Notes: a model not told the origin generated them from the sequence alone. A DNA stretch of 30,942 nt from a virus (IMGVR_UViG_3300020436_000048:1-30942); one strand, 5' to 3'; positions 11,497-28,868 are shown, numbered from the stretch's first letter. Program-made: numbers and translations.

Positions 11497-13924
11497 AGGA
11501 AAAGATTTATCAGTATTTCTAAGACTTAATTCGAAAGCATTTACATCCGCTCTAAAAAGAGTAGAAACAAGATTGGGTAGATTTAGTAAATCTATGCAAC
11601 AAATGGGATCTACTTTAAGCAGGAATGTGTCAATGCCATTAATAGGATTGGGTGCGGCTAGTGTAAAATTAGCGAGTGATTTTCAGTCGTCTATGACTAA
11701 AATTCAAACGTTAGTTGGATTACCCGCTGAACAAGTACAAATTCTATCAGATAGAGTAAAAGATCTATCAGGAACAACAGCAACTGCACCACAAGAATTA
11801 GCAGAAGGTTTATACTTTTTAACTTCAGCAGGATTAGATGCTTCTTCAGCAATGGAGGCATTAGAATCTGTTGCAAAAGGAACAGCAATTGGTTTAGGTG
11901 AACAAGGTGATCTTGCTAAAGTAGCAGCAGCGGCACAAAACGCTTATGGTTCTGAAGTAGTATCTGCTTCTGACGCGTTAGATATGTTTGGCACCATGGT
12001 TCGTACAGGTATGTTCGAATCTGCAGAATTAGCAAATGTATTAGGATCACAATTAGGTTTAGCAGCAAACTTAGGAATTGAAATGGAGGAATTAGGTGCA
12101 ATGATTAGTACCTATACAAGAACAACAGGATCAGCAACTGACGCAACAACTGGTTTGTCTGGAATAATGATGAGCTTTGCAAAAGTTACTCCAAAAGCAG
12201 AAGAAGCTTTAAAAAACGCTACAGCAAGTTTTAAAGAAGGTGGCATGGACGCGAAAGATCTTCGTGAAATGCTTGGTGAAAAAGGTTTACAAGGAACTCT
12301 TTTATTTCTACAAGAACAATTTCAACAATCAGGTATACCATTATCTGAATTTTTTAGTAAATCACAAGCATTAAAAGGAGTATTAGGTGTATTAGGAGAA
12401 CAAACAGGAAGTTATACAGAGATTCTTGATCAAATGGGAGAATCACAAGGGTTTGTTAATGATGCATTTGAAACTACTTCACAGACAGCAGAATTTAAAT
12501 TTAAACAATCAATAGCAGACTTAAAAACCGCAGGTATAGAATTAGGTGAAAGCTTAATGCCAATAGCTACAGGAATTGCAAATGCATTTTCTAAAATGGC
12601 TAGATCATTTAGTGGTATGAGTGAAGAAAGTAGAGAGAAACTTGTAAAATTAGGACTTGCTTTAGTAGCTTTAGGACCTACATTAATTATTATTGGAAAG
12701 ATAGTAAAAATGTTTCAGTTTGTTGTTAAAGTTGTAAGAATTGCAAGAGGAGCGGTTATAGCAGTTAGAACAGCAATGTTGGCAATGAATCCTGTTGGAG
12801 CATTGATAGCAGGTATAGTTGGAATAGTAGCATTGATGATTAAAAACTTTGAAAAAGTAAAACCTAAAATAGTTGATGTGATTAACCTTTTTATTAATCT
12901 ATACAATGAAAGTATAGCCGTAAGGGTAATTATAGAAGGAATAAAGTTTGCATTTAAATCTATATTTAACGCTGCTAAATTTTATGTTGGTCAAATAGCA
13001 AATATATTTTCTGGTTTAGGAAAAGCTTTAGTTGATTTATTAAATTTTAGATCACCAAAAGAATCTTTAAAAGCTATGTGGAATGACATGAAAGCCACTA
13101 CAAAAGATTTTGCTGAAAGCGCTACAAATGATGTTGATCAAATGATGAAAAACATTAAGGGCAAGGAAAAAGTAAAACTTATAACAGACAAAGATATAGA
13201 CAATACACTTGGTAATGTAAAAAACAAAGTAAATGGTTTTTTAAGTGACATGTCGAATGCAATTGGCATAGGTGATATAATAAACACAGATGATACTGGA
13301 GAGGGTGCTGAATTAGATATTGATGGAACAGCAAATATAGAAGATATAACTTTTAATCCTGACAAAGTAGAAGTAGATGAAAATGGAGATCCTGTAGTAA
13401 CTGTTGGCGTAGATGCTAATACAGATAAAATTGACGAAAAATTACAAAACCTACAAGATCAAACACAGTCAGCTTTTAATAGCATGGCAGATTCTCAAAA
13501 AGGTGGATTACAAGAAATGGTTAGTCAAACTAAAAGTGCGGCTAGAGAAATTATAAAAGCAGAAATTGCAAAAGGTACTGCTAAATGGGCAGCAAGTGTT
13601 TTAGGTGGTGTACCTTTTCCAGCAAATGCAATTTTAGCAGCAACGGCTGGAGTTGTAGTAGGTGGAATTTTTAATGCTATAATTCCTCCATTTGCACAAG
13701 GTGGTTTAGTAACAGGGCCAACTTTAGCAATGGTTGGTGAAGGTTCTGGAACAAGTGCAATTAATCCTGAGGTTATAGCACCATTAGACAAATTAAAAGG
13801 AATGATTGCCGGTGGATCAGGAGGAAGGTTACATGGTAGAATATCTGGATCTGATATATTATTAAGTAATGATAGAGGTACTATGAGCCAAGATAGAGTA
13901 TCTGGTTCTGTAACTAATTTTTAA
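11489..13924 (+). CDS. Tail tape measure protein
   Basis: 811 aa, sets tail length and is threaded inside the tube. The N-terminal 370 residues match the TP901-type core: a helical start (FTSALKRVETRLGRFSKSM), then MTKIQTLVGL, LSGTTATAPQELAEGLYFLTSAG-type segment, and SATDATTGLSGIMMSF. Two hydrophobic segments lie near 388-410 and 430-450 (LVALGPTLIIIGKIV; GALIAGIVGIVALMI). The C-terminus is Gly-rich with PFAQGGLVTGPTLAMVGEG and NPEVIAPLDKL, typical of tape measures. By the usual 1.5 angstrom per residue rule this implies a tail of about 120 nm (inference). It overlaps the chaperone extension by 8 bases. Confidence 0.95.
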   Translation: MAKGKDLSVFLRLNSKAFTSALKRVETRLGRFSKSMQQMGSTLSRNVSMPLIGLGAASVKLASDFQSSMTKIQTLVGLPAEQVQILSDRVKDLSGTTATAPQELAEGLYFLTSAGLDASSAMEALESVAKGTAIGLGEQGDLAKVAAAAQNAYGSEVVSASDALDMFGTMVRTGMFESAELANVLGSQLGLAANLGIEMEELGAMISTYTRTTGSATDATTGLSGIMMSFAKVTPKAEEALKNATASFKEGGMDAKDLREMLGEKGLQGTLLFLQEQFQQSGIPLSEFFSKSQALKGVLGVLGEQTGSYTEILDQMGESQGFVNDAFETTSQTAEFKFKQSIADLKTAGIELGESLMPIATGIANAFSKMARSFSGMSEESREKLVKLGLALVALGPTLIIIGKIVKMFQFVVKVVRIARGAVIAVRTAMLAMNPVGALIAGIVGIVALMIKNFEKVKPKIVDVINLFINLYNESIAVRVIIEGIKFAFKSIFNAAKFYVGQIANIFSGLGKALVDLLNFRSPKESLKAMWNDMKATTKDFAESATNDVDQMMKNIKGKEKVKLITDKDIDNTLGNVKNKVNGFLSDMSNAIGIGDIINTDDTGEGAELDIDGTANIEDITFNPDKVEVDENGDPVVTVGVDANTDKIDEKLQNLQDQTQSAFNSMADSQKGGLQEMVSQTKSAAREIIKAEIAKGTAKWAASVLGGVPFPANAILAATAGVVVGGIFNAIIPPFAQGGLVTGPTLAMVGEGSGTSAINPEVIAPLDKLKGMIAGGSGGRLHGRISGSDILLSNDRGTMSQDRVSGSVTNF

Positions 13925-20523: not shown

Positions 20524-20805
20524 ATGAGTACAATAACTGCAATTCTGCTTAAAAAGCATCCTATAAAAACCTCTAGACATGGAGGTAAATATATCAGAAC
20601 TATTTGGAATGATATTACAAACAATCAAAAAGTAACATTAGACGTTTACCCTGATCACTGGGCTTCGAAAAGATTTATGAAATATCTAACTCCTCAAACT
20701 ATATTATCGGGATTAGAATTAATAAATATAAAAGGCAAAAAATACATATCGGGATATTCGAAAACAATAACATATATGGGAATAAGACATGAAAAACATA
20801 ATTAA
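20524..20805 (+). CDS. Unknown 93-aa protein, first gene of modification operon
   Basis: 93 aa. No family recognised. Predicted mixed beta/alpha: TITAILLKKHPIKTS, GGKYIRTIWNDITNNQKVTLDVYP, then LELINIKGKKYISGYSKTITYMG; strand-rich with many Lys/Tyr, which would suit a small OB- or SH3-like nucleic-acid-binding fold. Its 3' end overlaps the next gene by 17 bases, so it is translationally linked to the operon. Function unknown. Confidence 0.65.
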   Translation: MSTITAILLKKHPIKTSRHGGKYIRTIWNDITNNQKVTLDVYPDHWASKRFMKYLTPQTILSGLELINIKGKKYISGYSKTITYMGIRHEKHN

Positions 20806-21082
20806 AGAAGCTCACGAAATAATACATGAAAGATCACAGGAAAAAGAAAGATCTTACGGCCCATTTTCAGAGGGAATGTGTAGAGCAGCTAAAATAGCAC
20901 AAGGTATAACTGGAAAAGATTTTACAGCAGAAGATGTATATGCATGCATGATAGCACTAAAACTATCTAGGCATTCGTATAATTATAAAAGAGATAATTT
21001 ATTAGATGCTATTGCATACATTGGCGCTTTAGATGATTTTATTAATAACTATAAAAAAAATAAAAATGGGACAAGTATTTAG
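20789..21082 (+). CDS. DUF6378-like phage protein
   Basis: 97 aa. All-helical, with the pattern ERSYGPFSEGMCRAAKIAQ, then FTAEDVYACMIALKLSRHSYN and DNLLDAIAYIGALDDFI. From memory this is the DUF6378 pattern, a small helical family widespread in phages that resembles half of an all-alpha NTP pyrophosphohydrolase (MazG-like) bundle. No metal-binding ExxE motif of MazG is complete here. It lies in the operon with nucleotide-metabolism genes, so a role in nucleotide handling is plausible. It overlaps its neighbours on both sides by 17 bases. Confidence 0.7.
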   Translation: MKNIIKEAHEIIHERSQEKERSYGPFSEGMCRAAKIAQGITGKDFTAEDVYACMIALKLSRHSYNYKRDNLLDAIAYIGALDDFINNYKKNKNGTSI

Positions 21083-21200
21083 ATTTTGCTGCAGATGTGT
21101 TAGAATGATGCTAATACAAGACGGTAAATGTTTGTGTTGCAAAAAAGATTTTTTAGTAAAAGGAGAAAAAGATAATAATTATAAAACAACAAAAATATGA
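21066..21200 (+). CDS. 44-aa zinc-ribbon protein
   Basis: Frame from ATG 21066 to TGA 21198-21200. The 44-aa product has two CxxC pairs: C8-C11 (CCRC) and C22-C25 (CLCC), 10 residues apart, followed by a Lys-rich tail. That is a minimal zinc-ribbon/rubredoxin-knuckle arrangement. It overlaps the DUF6378-like gene by 17 bases and the next gene by 4 (ATGA), so it is embedded in the operon's translational chain. Possibly a DNA/RNA- or protein-binding accessory to the modification enzymes. Confidence 0.7.
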   Translation: MGQVFRFCCRCVRMMLIQDGKCLCCKKDFLVKGEKDNNYKTTKI

Positions 21201-22189
21201 AAATAGGAATTATTGGGATAGTACAAAATCCCTCAAGGAGATTAACCTCTCACAATGCTGGTTGGACTTATGCATTAAGATCACAACTAAGAAATAAATA
21301 CAATACAGATGTAGATATTTTAACAGAGAAAGATGAATGGAATGACTATGACATTCTATATATTACAGAAGGTGTAAATTATAGACATAATGTTTGGAAT
21401 TTATTTGGTGGTGTTAGTCCTAAGTTAGTTGAAAGGATTAATAAACTTTTAGAATATAAACGTGGTGATCTATATTTTTACGGTGATCAAGCTCCTGATT
21501 ATATGAACTTAGTAAAAAGTAGAAATTTATTGTATTTTGAAGATCTTTTATTTCCTCCAATAAAAGCTGTAACAACAATTGTAGAAACTGATAATATAGT
21601 TATTGGAGATAGTCATGCAATATCTGTATATGAAGACGATTACAATATACAAAGACATGATGGACAAACTTTACATGGTGCTTTACGAAAAGGATTGCAC
21701 ACTTATTTAGATAAAGATAAAGTATATAATAAGGTTAGATTTTACTTTGGTAATATAGACGTAAGACATCATTTATGTAGATTATACCCTGACAAAGATC
21801 GTAGGATTCACGAAATAAAAGTTTTAGTTGGAGACTATCTTTATCAATGTGAAAAATTAATAAAAAATGGCAATTGCAAACAAATTGAAATAGTGTCATT
21901 ATTGCCTATAGAAAATGAAAGTAGAAAAATACCAAAGACTGGTTATTACGATGGCAAACCTTTTTGGGGATCACAAAATGATAGAATAGAAGCAATGACT
22001 ATTTTTAATGTTTACATGCACAAACAGTTGATTCTAAATAAATATATAAGTATAGTTTTGTGGGATAAATTTGAAAGCAGTATTGAATTAAATTTTAAAA
22101 ACATGGAACAAGGTCAAAGTGTACATTTAGCTCCACATAGTTATATGCACAATTTTATTAATGATAAAAAAAACACATTATGGGGATAA
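21197..22189 (+). CDS. SGNH-hydrolase-like two-domain protein, modification cluster
   Basis: 330 aa. Residues 1-130 look Rossmann-like: MKIGIIGIVQNPSRRLTSHN, then DYDILYITEGVNYR and YFYGDQ, reminiscent of GT-B or nucleotide-binding N-domains. From about 131 an SGNH/GDSL-type hydrolase pattern begins: IVIGDSH (S139, block I), a Gly in DGQTLHG (block II), FYFGNIDVR (N186, block III) and, near the end, SVHLAPHSY with H310 (block V; the usual Asp three residues before is not evident). Known SGNH enzymes hydrolyse or transfer acyl groups. It starts in ATGA overlap with the zinc-ribbon gene and overlaps the next gene by 10 bases. I infer a role in adding or trimming a group on a modified base; not shown. 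Confidence 0.6.
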   Translation: MKIGIIGIVQNPSRRLTSHNAGWTYALRSQLRNKYNTDVDILTEKDEWNDYDILYITEGVNYRHNVWNLFGGVSPKLVERINKLLEYKRGDLYFYGDQAPDYMNLVKSRNLLYFEDLLFPPIKAVTTIVETDNIVIGDSHAISVYEDDYNIQRHDGQTLHGALRKGLHTYLDKDKVYNKVRFYFGNIDVRHHLCRLYPDKDRRIHEIKVLVGDYLYQCEKLIKNGNCKQIEIVSLLPIENESRKIPKTGYYDGKPFWGSQNDRIEAMTIFNVYMHKQLILNKYISIVLWDKFESSIELNFKNMEQGQSVHLAPHSYMHNFINDKKNTLWG

Positions 22190-23208
22190 TTATAAATCAA
22201 GATATATTAGAGGCAATAGACGATTATCATGAAAAAAGTCTAAAAATGCAAAATTACCATTTTGATCATAAATTAGATAGTTTGACAAAATATGATGTAG
22301 ATGATGATTTAATTTATAATGTACCTATTTATGACATGTTAGATCGTAGATACGCTGCGTTTAGTAGCTTTTTAGAAGCTATTTATAAAACCTATGATGA
22401 TCCAAAGGGAAATGGAAAATACTTTGCTGAAGGCGCTTTAAATGCGAATCCTAAAACTATGATTTATTTATTTTACTTATTTAGATTATGCGGTTCTGGG
22501 ATTAATTACATTCCTAAAACAACAGACAATCCTTTTGGAACTCATGGATTTGGAAATTTTTGGATTGTAGATTTAGTTAAAGAAGGTGATTATGATCCAC
22601 AAGAATGGATGGATAAATTAAGAGAAATAAATAAACCATTTACTAATAACAAAGGTTATTTATTGCCACAGTTTAGTTATAAAAATCAGACAGGTGGTCA
22701 TTTGAAAAGATTTATTTTAGAAGAAAGTTTATTATTAGTCGACAAATTATATGAATTTTTACGAAAAAATAAACCTGTTCCAATTACACAAGCGGTAGAT
22801 TATATGAATATATATTTAAAAGAGAAAGGATTTAAAAAACAAAATTTCGTATTGTCAGCTACAATGGCTGATGTTGCTGAGTATTATCCTAGTTTAGTTG
22901 ATCCAAATTCTATGATCTATGCTGGAACTAATGCAAAAAAATGTATAAATCTTATATTTAAAAAAGATGGCAATTATCAAACTAATTTACAGTTTGAATC
23001 AGAATGCATACAGTTTTTAGCAGACAGATATAACTCAACACCATATTCTGTAGAAGATTCAAGACTTTGTGACGTAATAAGATACTTTAAAGAATACCAA
23101 TCAGATCATCACATAAAAAAAAATCACGGCATAATTATGAAAAATAATAGTATATTAAAAAGAAAGTGGGGATTAGAAACTTATAAAAAATTCGTATCAT
23201 GTATGTAA
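22180..23208 (+). CDS. aGPT-pyrophosphorylase-like (HhH DNA-glycosylase-fold) protein
   Basis: 342 aa, helical. A core LFYLFRLCGSGINYIP (R102, G105-G107) followed by DNPFGTHGFGNFWIVD resembles, from memory, the RxxGSG...HG pattern of the alpha-glutamyl/putrescinyl-thymine pyrophosphorylase (aGPT-Pplase) families, which derive from the HhH DNA-glycosylase fold and attach amines or amino acids to activated hydroxymethyl-pyrimidines in phage DNA. A C-terminal FVLSATMADVAEYYP, then DPNSMIYAGTNAKKCINLIF, would form the helical DNA-facing half. Neighbours (PLP enzyme, hydroxymethylase) fit that role. The family identity is a pattern impression, not a search result; an unrelated DNA-binding role is possible. 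Confidence 0.5.
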   Translation: MGIIINQDILEAIDDYHEKSLKMQNYHFDHKLDSLTKYDVDDDLIYNVPIYDMLDRRYAAFSSFLEAIYKTYDDPKGNGKYFAEGALNANPKTMIYLFYLFRLCGSGINYIPKTTDNPFGTHGFGNFWIVDLVKEGDYDPQEWMDKLREINKPFTNNKGYLLPQFSYKNQTGGHLKRFILEESLLLVDKLYEFLRKNKPVPITQAVDYMNIYLKEKGFKKQNFVLSATMADVAEYYPSLVDPNSMIYAGTNAKKCINLIFKKDGNYQTNLQFESECIQFLADRYNSTPYSVEDSRLCDVIRYFKEYQSDHHIKKNHGIIMKNNSILKRKWGLETYKKFVSCM

Positions 23209-24101
23209 ATAAACATTGGGGAACAGAAAACAAAGACGATAAAAGTTTAGACTATTATTTAGATCTAACAAAAGATTTTAAAAGTAGTTTTAAACCATTT
23301 GAGGTGATCAAAAGAAAAGGAAGTATTGGAGAACATTATATCATAGACGAATCTAGATCTAACCCAGTAGGCGCAAAAGCTAGGTTTGGTGAGTTTTTAA
23401 TGACAAAGCTAGATGGATATAAAGAAATAGTATACGTACAACCACGTAGAGGTTTTGCAGGTATTAGTTTATCGTATTTATGTGAATTATATAGAAAGAA
23501 TTTAACACTAGTAATGCCATCATCTAAAAAATCTTCAGATCATCAAAGGTTATGCATAGAATATGGAGCAAAACCATTATTTGTAAGAATAGCTGCAATG
23601 CCTAATGCTAATAAATATGCGAAAGAATATGCAGAAAAAAGAGGTGCTTTTTTTATTCCATTAGGATTACAACACGAATATGTAATTGCTGGTGCAGTGA
23701 GATCTATACATGATTATTTTGCTGGTGAAAAACATCCAGAAAGAATGTGGTGTGTAATATCAACAGGTGTTTTGTCAAGATCTTTACAGATTGCTTTGCC
23801 TAAAACTAAATTTTATAATGTTGCAGTATCTAGAAACATACAACAAGGTGAATTAGGTAGAGCAAAATTTTATTCATACCATAAAAGATTTGAGACAGTT
23901 GCTGATTATGTGCCAAAAACTTTTAACTGTGAACCATCTTACGATTCTAAAGGTTATGAATATATGTTAAAATATGGAAAAGAAGGAGATTGGTTTTTTA
24001 ACGTAGCAGGAGAAGCGCCTAAACCAACTTTACAAGCAGAAGAAGTAGACTCTTACAGAGATTGGGGTGATTTTAAAGATTTTAAAGGAACTATTATATG
24101 A
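23199..24101 (+). CDS. PLP-dependent enzyme, fold type II (ACC-deaminase/Trp-synthase-beta-like)
   Basis: 300 aa. The segment SRSNPVGAKARFGEF (K60 as the likely PLP-binding Lys) corresponds to the NPTGSFKxR/GxKxR motif of fold-type II enzymes. It is followed by the usual strand-helix-strand: EIVYVQPRRGFAGISLSYLC (cofactor/substrate loop, but without the common SGNxG), LTLVMPSS...DHQRLCIEYGAKPLFV, IPLGLQHEYVIAGAVRSI and WCVISTGVLSRSLQIA (phosphate-binding position). Length suits the ACC deaminase/D-cysteine desulfhydrase subgroup. In known phage hypermodification pathways PLP enzymes reshape an amino acid attached to the base; a similar role, or supply of an amine, is inferred. Overlaps by 10 and 4 bases show tight coupling to the neighbours. 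Confidence 0.75.
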   Translation: MYVNKHWGTENKDDKSLDYYLDLTKDFKSSFKPFEVIKRKGSIGEHYIIDESRSNPVGAKARFGEFLMTKLDGYKEIVYVQPRRGFAGISLSYLCELYRKNLTLVMPSSKKSSDHQRLCIEYGAKPLFVRIAAMPNANKYAKEYAEKRGAFFIPLGLQHEYVIAGAVRSIHDYFAGEKHPERMWCVISTGVLSRSLQIALPKTKFYNVAVSRNIQQGELGRAKFYSYHKRFETVADYVPKTFNCEPSYDSKGYEYMLKYGKEGDWFFNVAGEAPKPTLQAEEVDSYRDWGDFKDFKGTII

Positions 24102-24769
24102 AAGATTTTTTTGAAAAACATGGTGATTATATAAATGAATTTGACAATGCCAATGAAGCATTTATTTATTGGTATAATGTTATTGACAAACTCGGGTATA
24201 ATTATGCAAACACAAAGGCTTTATTTAATATAGGTTTTTATCTTACAGATCCTACAAAAAATTTAATAACTTGCAAAGAACGTAAATGGAAAAAAGATTA
24301 CGCTGAATTAGAATGGAGATGGTATGAATCAGGAAATAGTTCTGCTGTAGAAATAGCTAAGCATGCTAAAATATGGTATAAATGCATGGATGTACAAGGT
24401 AATGTGAATTCTAATTACGGTTGTCATTGGCAAGAAGGTGATCAACTTGGATATGTTATAAGAGAACTAAAAAAAGATAAAAATTCAAGACGAGCATCTA
24501 TAAGCATTTATAATGCAAAAAAAAGATATAACTGGGAGAATGATACTCCTTGTACTTATGCAATAAATTTTCACATACATGAAGATAAATTAAATATGAG
24601 CGTAATGATGAGATCTAACGATTTGTGGTATGGATTTTGTAATGATCAATACTGCTTTTCTAAATTACTAATGTTAGTAGCTCACGAATTATCATGCGAA
24701 ATAGGAACATATTATCATTTTGTGAATAATATACATTTATATAATAATTTTTTAAACAGAAATATATAA
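24098..24769 (+). CDS. Pyrimidine hydroxymethylase, thymidylate-synthase family (probably dCMP type)
   Basis: 223 aa, slightly shorter than TS. The TS fold is clear: VNSNYGCHW (YGxxW), NSRRASISIYN (phosphate-binding RR), catalytic C152 in TPCTYAINF, RSNDLWYGF, and IHLYNNF. Position D183 (CNDQY) aligns with E. coli TS Asn177, the residue that discriminates dUMP; Asp here is found in T4 dCMP hydroxymethylase and in CMP hydroxymethylases, so 5-hydroxymethyl-dCMP is the predicted product. PCT instead of PCH is also seen in that group. It follows the PLP gene by ATGA overlap and precedes MazG-like and dCMP deaminase genes. dUMP hydroxymethylation cannot be excluded. Confidence 0.82.
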   Translation: MKDFFEKHGDYINEFDNANEAFIYWYNVIDKLGYNYANTKALFNIGFYLTDPTKNLITCKERKWKKDYAELEWRWYESGNSSAVEIAKHAKIWYKCMDVQGNVNSNYGCHWQEGDQLGYVIRELKKDKNSRRASISIYNAKKRYNWENDTPCTYAINFHIHEDKLNMSVMMRSNDLWYGFCNDQYCFSKLLMLVAHELSCEIGTYYHFVNNIHLYNNFLNRNI

Positions 24770-24784
24770 CTAAAAACAAAAACT

Positions 24785-25084
24785 ATGGAATACTTTAAAT
24801 ACACACAAATTAGACAATGGGCAACAGAACGTGGAATCTACGAAAAAGGAGATTCTAAAACTCAATATCTTAAATTGCAAGAAGAATCTGGAGAATTAGC
24901 TGAAGCTATATTAAAAAATAATAAAATAGAAATAAAAGATGCAATTGGTGATATGGTTGTAGTCTTAACTAATTTAGCAGAATTATGCGATCTTAAAATA
25001 GAGGATTGTGTTACTCATGCAATTAATGAAATTACAGATAGAAAAGGTAAGATGATCAATGGAACATTTGTAAAAGATAAATAA
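24785..25084 (+). CDS. MazG-like NTP pyrophosphohydrolase
   Basis: 99 aa. All-alpha NTP-PPase pattern: YLKLQEESGELAEAIL supplies the EExxE metal ligands and DAIGDMVVVLTNLAELC the downstream ExxD-type ligand helix. The family hydrolyses (d)NTPs to monophosphates. In a phage with a modified pyrimidine, such an enzyme can remove the unmodified dNTP or produce the monophosphate substrate for the hydroxymethylase (inference). A 15-base A-rich leader separates it from the previous gene; its stop overlaps the dCMP deaminase start (TAATG). Confidence 0.85.
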   Translation: MEYFKYTQIRQWATERGIYEKGDSKTQYLKLQEESGELAEAILKNNKIEIKDAIGDMVVVLTNLAELCDLKIEDCVTHAINEITDRKGKMINGTFVKDK

Positions 25085-25506
25085 TGGATGTTTTAAAATA
25101 TCATAAAACTTATTTAAAATTAGCAACTGAAATAAGCAAATTATCATATTGTAAAAGAAAAAAAGTTGGAGCGTTAATTGTAAAAAACAACATGATTATT
25201 TCAGATGGTTTTAATGGAACTCCAACAGGTTTTGATAATACTTGCGAAATAGATAACGTAACAAAATGGTATGTATTACATGCAGAGGCAAATGCTATTT
25301 TAAAATGTGCAAAGCATGGTAGATCATGTTTAGGTGCTACGATGTATTTAACTTTGTCACCTTGTAAAGATTGTGCAAAATTAATTTATCAAGCAGGAAT
25401 TGTTAAAATATATTTTTCAGATTATCATTACAATACTGAAGGTTTAGATTTTTTAGATCAAGCAAAAGTACAATATGAACATTTGAATGTTAATAACACT
25501 AAATAA
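25084..25506 (+). CDS. dCMP deaminase
   Basis: 140 aa. Zinc-dependent deoxycytidylate deaminase: HAEANAI with H66 and E68, and SPCKDCAKLI with C94 and C97, the three zinc ligands plus catalytic Glu. The N-terminal KRKKVGALIVKNNMIISDGFNGTPTG is the typical dCMP deaminase start and separates it from cytidine deaminases. Product dUMP feeds thymidylate synthesis or dUMP hydroxymethylation. Translationally coupled to MazG-like gene upstream, it belongs to the same nucleotide module as the hydroxymethylase. Confidence 0.93.
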   Translation: MDVLKYHKTYLKLATEISKLSYCKRKKVGALIVKNNMIISDGFNGTPTGFDNTCEIDNVTKWYVLHAEANAILKCAKHGRSCLGATMYLTLSPCKDCAKLIYQAGIVKIYFSDYHYNTEGLDFLDQAKVQYEHLNVNNTK

Positions 25507-27974: not shown

Positions 27975-28868
27975 ATGATTTCAGTAAATAGTATTAGCGG
28001 TGGTCAAACATCAGCATACATAGCAACAAAATATCCTTCTGATTATAATGTTTTTTCTTTAGTAAGAATTGAAGGAAAAAGAACTATAAAAGATAAGAAA
28101 GTTATTCAATACATAGAAGATAGAATACAAAAACCATTTATTGCAACTGCAGAAGATGATATTATTATTAGAACAATGATAGATCTAGAACAGTATATCG
28201 GTAAAAAGATACATTGGGTTAGTGGTGATACATTTGATGAGCATTTAAGATATAATAATGGCAATGTTCCTAATTTAATGAGGCGAACTTGTACAATTAA
28301 TTTAAAATTAAAACCAATGTTTGAATGGTGGCAAAAAACTATTAATGAAGTAGTAGAAATGAGAATTGGATTTAGAGCAAATGAGTTAGGAAGAAAAGCA
28401 GGTCAAGATAAAAGATTAAATAAAGATGGATATTTAGAATTTAAACATGTAATTGGAAAACATGAATCAGGTAGAAATAAATGGGGTACAACTGCTTGGC
28501 AAAAACCAAGATACCCTTTGATAGAAGATAATATATTAAAAGATACTATACAAAAATTTTGGTCTGATAAACCTGTAAAATTTGCACCAATAAATAACTG
28601 TGTTGGATGTTTTCATCAAAATATACCTTTATTAAGAAAAAGATTTGATTGGTTCCCTGAAAAAATGGATTGGTTTATTTCTAAAGAAGGTAATAAAAAC
28701 ATAATTAAAAAAACAGAAAAAAATAAAGGAAATACTAACAGATGGAGAGCAGGAATTGATGAATTATATTATACTGATGTAAAAAAGATGTTTAGACAAA
28801 ACTCATTATTTGATGAATTAACAGACAAGGATTTTACAGAATGTGATTCAGGTTATTGCGGATTATAA
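27975..28868 (+). CDS. PP-loop enzyme, PAPS-reductase-like family
   Basis: 297 aa. The N-terminal SISGGQTSAY (residues 6-15) is an SGGxTSxY PP-loop for ATP/nucleotide binding. Further family-like features: RRTCTINLKLKP (C106), CVGCFHQN (C209, C212) and a C-terminal ECDSGYCG (C290, C295). Such phage proteins are annotated as phosphoadenosine phosphosulfate reductase-like; the scattered Cys could bind an Fe-S cluster as in DndC-type enzymes. Its substrate is unknown: sulfur transfer to DNA, tRNA or a nucleotide is possible, as is a non-sulfur adenylation. Position in the replication module is common for this group. Confidence 0.8.
   Translation: MISVNSISGGQTSAYIATKYPSDYNVFSLVRIEGKRTIKDKKVIQYIEDRIQKPFIATAEDDIIIRTMIDLEQYIGKKIHWVSGDTFDEHLRYNNGNVPNLMRRTCTINLKLKPMFEWWQKTINEVVEMRIGFRANELGRKAGQDKRLNKDGYLEFKHVIGKHESGRNKWGTTAWQKPRYPLIEDNILKDTIQKFWSDKPVKFAPINNCVGCFHQNIPLLRKRFDWFPEKMDWFISKEGNKNIIKKTEKNKGNTNRWRAGIDELYYTDVKKMFRQNSLFDELTDKDFTECDSGYCGL

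Follow-up and report, generated by a model that had tools for sequence, protein, structure and literature searches.

The described amino-acid hypermodifications of phage DNA begin from 5-hydroxymethyluracil and a kinase. In Pseudomonas phage M6, the thymidine pathway involves gp51, an amino acid:DNA transferase, gp52, a pyridoxal phosphate (PLP) enzyme, gp53, which is radical-SAM-like, gp54 and gp55, the 5-hydroxymethyldeoxyuridine (5-hmdU) kinase and a helical subunit, and gp58, a thymidylate synthase (TS) homolog, and it includes a PLP-dependent decarboxylation step. The T4 5-hydroxymethylcytosine pathway uses gp42, a deoxycytidine monophosphate (dCMP) hydroxymethylase, gp56, a dCTPase, and glucosyltransferases. 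Here, we examine a gene block at positions 20524 to 25506 of the IMG/VR virus record IMGVR_UViG_3300020436_000048, taken whole (30942 bases; the window). The window, which encodes terminase, portal, head protease, major head protein and tape measure, is a fragment of a tailed phage. The evidence gives good support to a DNA hypermodification cassette in this block, with cytosine as the most likely base; what we say of the substituent and of the roles of two of the encoded proteins, one of SGNH-hydrolase fold and one all-helical, is proposed.

Like M6, the window encodes a TS homolog, a helical transferase-like protein, a dCMP deaminase and a PLP enzyme that belongs to the family of the M6 one. 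However, its TS homolog is of the dCMP type, the kinase is absent, the transferase is matched by fold only and an SGNH protein is added. The radical SAM profile PF04055 had no match in the window, and M6 itself gave a weak match below the cut-off. With T4, the window shares the dCMP-type TS homolog, a nucleotide pyrophosphohydrolase and dCMP deaminase, but an SGNH protein, a helical protein and a PLP enzyme are found in place of the glucosyltransferase. The 5-hydroxymethylcytosine carbamoyltransferase and CmoX/CmoY carboxymethylcytosine-glycine systems resemble the window in that a cytosine handle is further decorated in phages, but their transfer enzymes (an ATP-dependent ligase for CmoX/CmoY) are unrelated to those of the window. 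Among the literature results listed, there was no prior description of the cassette and no link of SGNH proteins or inositol to phage DNA modification, the key thymidine-hypermodification papers lying outside this search.

The reading that we favour, at slightly better than even chances, is that 20524–25506 is a cytosine DNA hypermodification cassette in which 5-hydroxymethylcytosine is the substrate of the SGNH and helical proteins, acting as a pair, and an amino-acid substituent is tailored by the PLP enzyme. Its grounds are features of sequence and structure, namely gene content, conservation, the dCMP-type residue of the TS homolog, the PLP enzyme family, the SGNH fold, gene fusions and the lack of the kinase family. 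We infer every reaction, the order of the steps and the protection from nucleases, as follows. The TS homolog would convert dCMP to 5-hydroxymethyl-dCMP, MazG, perhaps together with a DUF6378 protein, would remove deoxycytidine triphosphate (dCTP), with MazG supplying dCMP, and 5-hydroxymethylcytosine would be incorporated into phage DNA. The helical protein would bind the base and flip it out, the SGNH–helical pair would convert the 5-hydroxymethyl group to an amino-acid adduct, with the SGNH protein activating in the kinase's stead, and the PLP enzyme would then tailor the amino acid of the adduct, decarboxylation being the simplest way. The product would be an amine-bearing cytosine that resists host nucleases. 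The cassette thus read points to a cytosine branch of amino-acid hypermodification that uses an SGNH enzyme and is widespread in environmental phages. If confirmed, the cassette would offer viruses a new way of chemically armouring their DNA, and its DNA bases, base-editing enzymes and counter-defence chemistry would all be new.

All of the reading frames of the block, which lie on the forward strand, were found at the coordinates given here, and the gaps between successive genes (a micro-ORF included) are, in order, −17, −17, −4, −10, −10, −4, +15 and −1 bases. The co-directional, overlapping arrangement described in the initial annotation thus holds nearly throughout. The SGNH protein is encoded at 21197–22189, the all-helical protein (here the 22180 protein) at 22180–23208 and the PLP enzyme at 23199–24101. 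These are followed by the TS homolog at 24098–24769 (Pfam thymidylate synthase, 5.4e-28), which is of the dCMP hydroxymethylase type, a MazG-type nucleotide pyrophosphohydrolase at 24785–25084 (Pfam MazG, 1.3e-07; PHROG 1992, 1.5e-36) and dCMP deaminase at 25084–25506 (Pfam, 1.2e-23), and genes for all three had been named in the initial annotation. Neither the SGNH protein nor the 22180 protein had any Pfam match, and the SGNH protein matched only unnamed phage families in the family search (PHROG 13881, 2.1e-47).

An alignment of the SGNH protein with its relatives from Aeromonas and Tenacibaculum phages retrieved 289 viral-contig relatives, and 80 of these were retained. SGNH counts were made with a clean profile that leaves out a helical-domain protein (L072 13358). 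Among these 80 contigs, 78 carry DUF6378, 74 the 22180 family, 69 the PLP enzyme, 59 a TS homolog and 50 MazG, and the order DUF6378, SGNH, 22180 family, PLP enzyme, TS homolog, MazG is nearly invariant. The SGNH, 22180 and PLP genes occur together in 69/80. Direct searches with the single 22180 protein gave no match in viral contigs or phages, and its relatives were reached only via the SGNH profile. A search with the 22180 family then found at least 589 relatives in IMG/VR; the 73 new loci examined have the PLP enzyme in 71, the full trio in 65 and dCMP deaminase, an optional member, in 26. The two locus sets overlap and some contigs may be related, so these counts are not independent. The linkage of the gene block is far beyond chance, and the co-occurrence in other phages that had been proposed as a check was found. 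Among genome contigs, no informative host emerged: the relatives came from four metagenome-assembled genome (MAG) contigs, and two or more of these carry replication genes of a phage-like kind. A subset of the cassettes (L262–L302) is found beside phage-encoded GroEL, GroES and dUTPase-like genes.

The PLP enzyme and M6 gp52 both fall in PHROG 7093 (1.4e-24 for the window protein) with a profile–profile P of 8e-7, and the PLP lysine, K60, is invariant (32/32). The match to PALP (2.2e-07, 30.9 bits) is under the Pfam cut-off of 35. Judged by its sequence, the enzyme is a member of the gp52 family, and gp52 sits in the thymidine-hypermodification cluster of M6. The initial annotation was right in calling it a fold-type II PLP enzyme, though not in treating this as an unusual component, because M6 gp52 is also of fold-type II. 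In phages of Erythrobacter and Microcystis (L006 2326–4764; L003 8375–10693), genes for PLP enzymes of this kind adjoin, or are fused to, N6/N4 DNA methyltransferase genes.

The AlphaFold2 model of the SGNH protein (predicted local distance difference test, pLDDT, 91.9) matched platelet-activating factor (PAF) acetylhydrolase and sialate O-acetylesterases in Foldseek with probability 1.0. G137, D138, S139, H140, N186 and D188 are present in 226/226 relatives and H310 in 224/226, the remaining two being gapped. The protein is thus predicted to have a true SGNH-hydrolase fold, it keeps the catalytic Ser, Asn and His of the superfamily, and the earlier description of it as SGNH-like is borne out.

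For the 22180 protein, the AlphaFold2 model (pLDDT 90.3) matched in BFVD a protein named 'Amino acid:DNA transferase' (A0A6J5L8T5; E 4e-14, template modelling score, TM, 0.74), and another of the same name (E 7e-4); its matches to helical-domain proteins of the 5-hmdU kinase were weaker. The best match in the PDB was a weak one, to 8-oxoguanine DNA glycosylase (probability 0.75). A profile of the 22180 family compared with M6 gp51, gp55 and helical-domain profiles gave nothing significant, with scores no better than those of unrelated families, and Pfam searches of distant members, including a fusion in L059, gave no match to PF18724 or PF18723. Because the sequence profiles fail, the model would make the 22180 protein an amino acid:DNA transferase-like member by fold only. 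T4 nrdC.11, a candidate relative, was rejected as it is an RlaP nucleotidyltransferase-like protein. In one cluster (c43; L084–L089, L319 and L321), a second 22180-related protein is encoded between the 22180 and PLP genes, perhaps a two-subunit arrangement like that of M6 gp51 and gp55. In L321, a MAG contig with phage-like genes, a C5-cytosine DNA methylase gene (12227–13426) directly follows the SGNH gene.

In four loci (L010, L038, L040 and L059), the SGNH protein and a 22180 homolog are fused, and in Aeromonas phage 44RR the fusion partner of the SGNH protein is a PF18723-like helical domain. At the comparable place, M6 has the kinase gp54 and the helical gp55. The 5-hmdU DNA kinase profile, PF18748, matched 0/40 records (the window and 39 related records, several of more than 100 kb), while the M6 control was positive; most of these records are fragments and the count covers the sequenced part only. 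From the fusions, the M6 arrangement and the kinase missing in 40/40, we propose that the SGNH protein stands in for the 5-hmdU DNA kinase as the activating enzyme. The initial annotation had suggested a DNA-base hypermodification operon in which no such kinase was visible, and the conserved cassette, the gp52-family PLP enzyme, the transferase-like fold and the missing kinase all support it.

A number of observations weigh against our reading. SGNH enzymes usually hydrolyse or transfer acyl groups, and we know of no precedent for one that activates a DNA base. The Asp expected three residues before the catalytic His is not conserved, position 307 being Q, G, K, E or R. Since most records are fragments, an unrelated kinase could lie elsewhere. 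The 50 best PDB fold matches listed for the 22180 protein do not include the solved amino acid:DNA transferases 8z2m and 25qc, and its sequence profiles had no significant match to PF18724 or PF18723, so that the original label, aGPT-pyrophosphorylase-like, stands as a likeness of predicted fold and fails at the level of sequence profiles. Finally, the DNA modification is itself a prediction from genes and modelled structures.

An alternative that we consider unlikely is that the SGNH protein serves in capping or editing, adding an acyl group to the substituent or removing one, and that the 22180 protein by itself attaches the amino acid to unactivated 5-hydroxymethylcytosine. The nearest folds of the SGNH protein are indeed acetyl-ester hydrolases, and no kinase is needed for displacement at the 5-methylene carbon when the cytosine ring assists. 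A 5-hydroxymethylcytosine O-carbamoyltransferase is known (PMC8670742). However, the SGNH gene is nearly as universal as the 22180 gene (compare the trio in 65/73 loci) and the two can be fused, a pattern more in line with a core step than with a cap added late, and the same SGNH family serves cassettes of the PLP type and of the inositol type described below.

The assignment of the base depends on the TS homolog. At the position of Asn177 in Escherichia coli thymidylate synthase, the residue is Asp in the window enzyme, in 59/59 TS homologs of the cassette, in T4 gp42 and in the gp42 proteins of 44RR and phiAS4, whereas it is Asn in M6 gp58 and ordinary TS enzymes. Residue 177 is reported to switch specificity from deoxyuridine monophosphate (dUMP) to dCMP and the switch is found in contigs with modified cytosine (PMC8670742). 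C146, R166 and D177 are invariant in the 59/59 and are the residues present in T4 gp42. Because of this Asp, shared with T4 gp42 and not with M6, the target base is most likely cytosine, as far as can be read from the sequence. The initial annotation had left cytosine and thymine both open; hypermodification is retained and residue 177 favours cytosine. The product of the TS homolog might nevertheless be 5-methyl-dCMP or 5-hydroxy-dCMP, giving a different cytosine handle, as an Asn-to-Asp TS makes 5-methyl-dCMP (PMC8670742) and Mosigvirus phages (the RB69 group) are reported to have a TS-family 5-hydroxy-dCMP synthase (PMC13390438), which is likely to be RB69 ORF048c to judge from its annotation. 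We rate this as quite improbable, as the window enzyme follows T4 gp42 in retaining E58, W80, Y94 and a T4-like MRSND..xG..ND motif, which ORF048c lacks, and because adding a substituent in the M6 style requires a hydroxymethyl handle.

That the SGNH, 22180 and PLP proteins synthesise a small molecule or act on a surface glycan, and are chance neighbours of the nucleotide genes, is very unlikely. Although glycan and amino-acid metabolism make frequent use of SGNH and PLP enzymes, and the SGNH gene of phiAS4 lies near one for UDP-galactopyranose mutase, the tight linkage to a dCMP-type TS homolog and MazG in dozens of contigs, the likeness of the 22180 fold to DNA-base enzymes and the membership of the PLP enzyme in the gp52 family all speak for a DNA modification. 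The prospect that the base is thymine, with the TS homolog making 5-hydroxymethyl-dUMP and the remainder forming a thymidine hypermodification pathway as in M6, is smaller still, since the shared PLP enzyme family and a dCMP deaminase that would supply dUMP are set against Asp177 in 59/59 relatives (Asn in gp58) and 5-hmdU kinase in 0/40 records.

A sister cassette was retrieved with the helical domains of L072 and 44RR (80 loci, L094–L173). Inositol-phosphate synthase is encoded in 80, the SGNH protein in 77 (clean profile), a small HAD-like protein in 72 and an FkbM methyltransferase in 68, and the PLP enzyme in 0/80. PF01658 was confirmed in two of the inositol-phosphate synthases, and the protein called HAD-like here had no Pfam match in the three tested. 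An example, L072 10001–14392, comprises DUF6378, SGNH, inositol-phosphate synthase, HAD-like, FkbM methyltransferase and PF18723-type helical domain genes. The TS homologs of this group likewise have Asp at residue 177. This content suggests an inositol-derived DNA modification. More tentatively, at somewhat less than even chances, both cassettes may be forms of one modular, kinase-free cytosine hypermodification in which an SGNH protein and a base-flipping helical protein replace the 5-hydroxymethyl group and swappable suppliers set the substituent, a PLP-tailored amino acid here and inositol in the sister cassette. If true, this would give the SGNH fold a new catalytic role and add two undescribed DNA bases.

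ORF233c of Aeromonas phage 44RR2.8t, the fusion of an SGNH protein with a PF18723-like helical domain noted above, belongs to the same SGNH family and is found in an isolated phage that has gene 42 and no known glucosyltransferase genes (PMC2993671). It differs from the window in that its helical domain is of the PF18723 type and no PLP gene adjoins the SGNH gene, the neighbour being a sodium:solute symporter gene directly before the fusion (L005 3366–7346). As 44RR2.8t lacks an inositol-phosphate synthase, the symporter might import the substituent. The phage being already isolated, any substituent on its cytosines is directly testable. In Aeromonas phage phiAS4 (L007 775–4047), a protein with no Pfam match, maybe a glycosyltransferase, is also encoded near the SGNH gene, and this locus is possibly a sugar-type variant.

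Three small genes precede the SGNH gene. The block opens with a 93 aa protein of unknown function (20524–20805), which has homologs in L010 and L087 and overlaps the next gene by 17 bases. The latter encodes the 97 aa DUF6378 protein (20789–21082; Pfam DUF6378, 2.8e-12), for which a nucleotide-pool function is possible. Between DUF6378 and SGNH, a 44-codon micro-ORF (21066–21200), which is an addition to the earlier gene list, encodes a cysteine-rich CxxC...CxxC protein with a counterpart in L010; its last 4 bases are shared with the start of the SGNH gene. A PAPS-reductase-like protein is encoded downstream of the cassette at 27975–28868, and Erythrobacter phage R6L has a relative of it close to the gene for its PLP enzyme.

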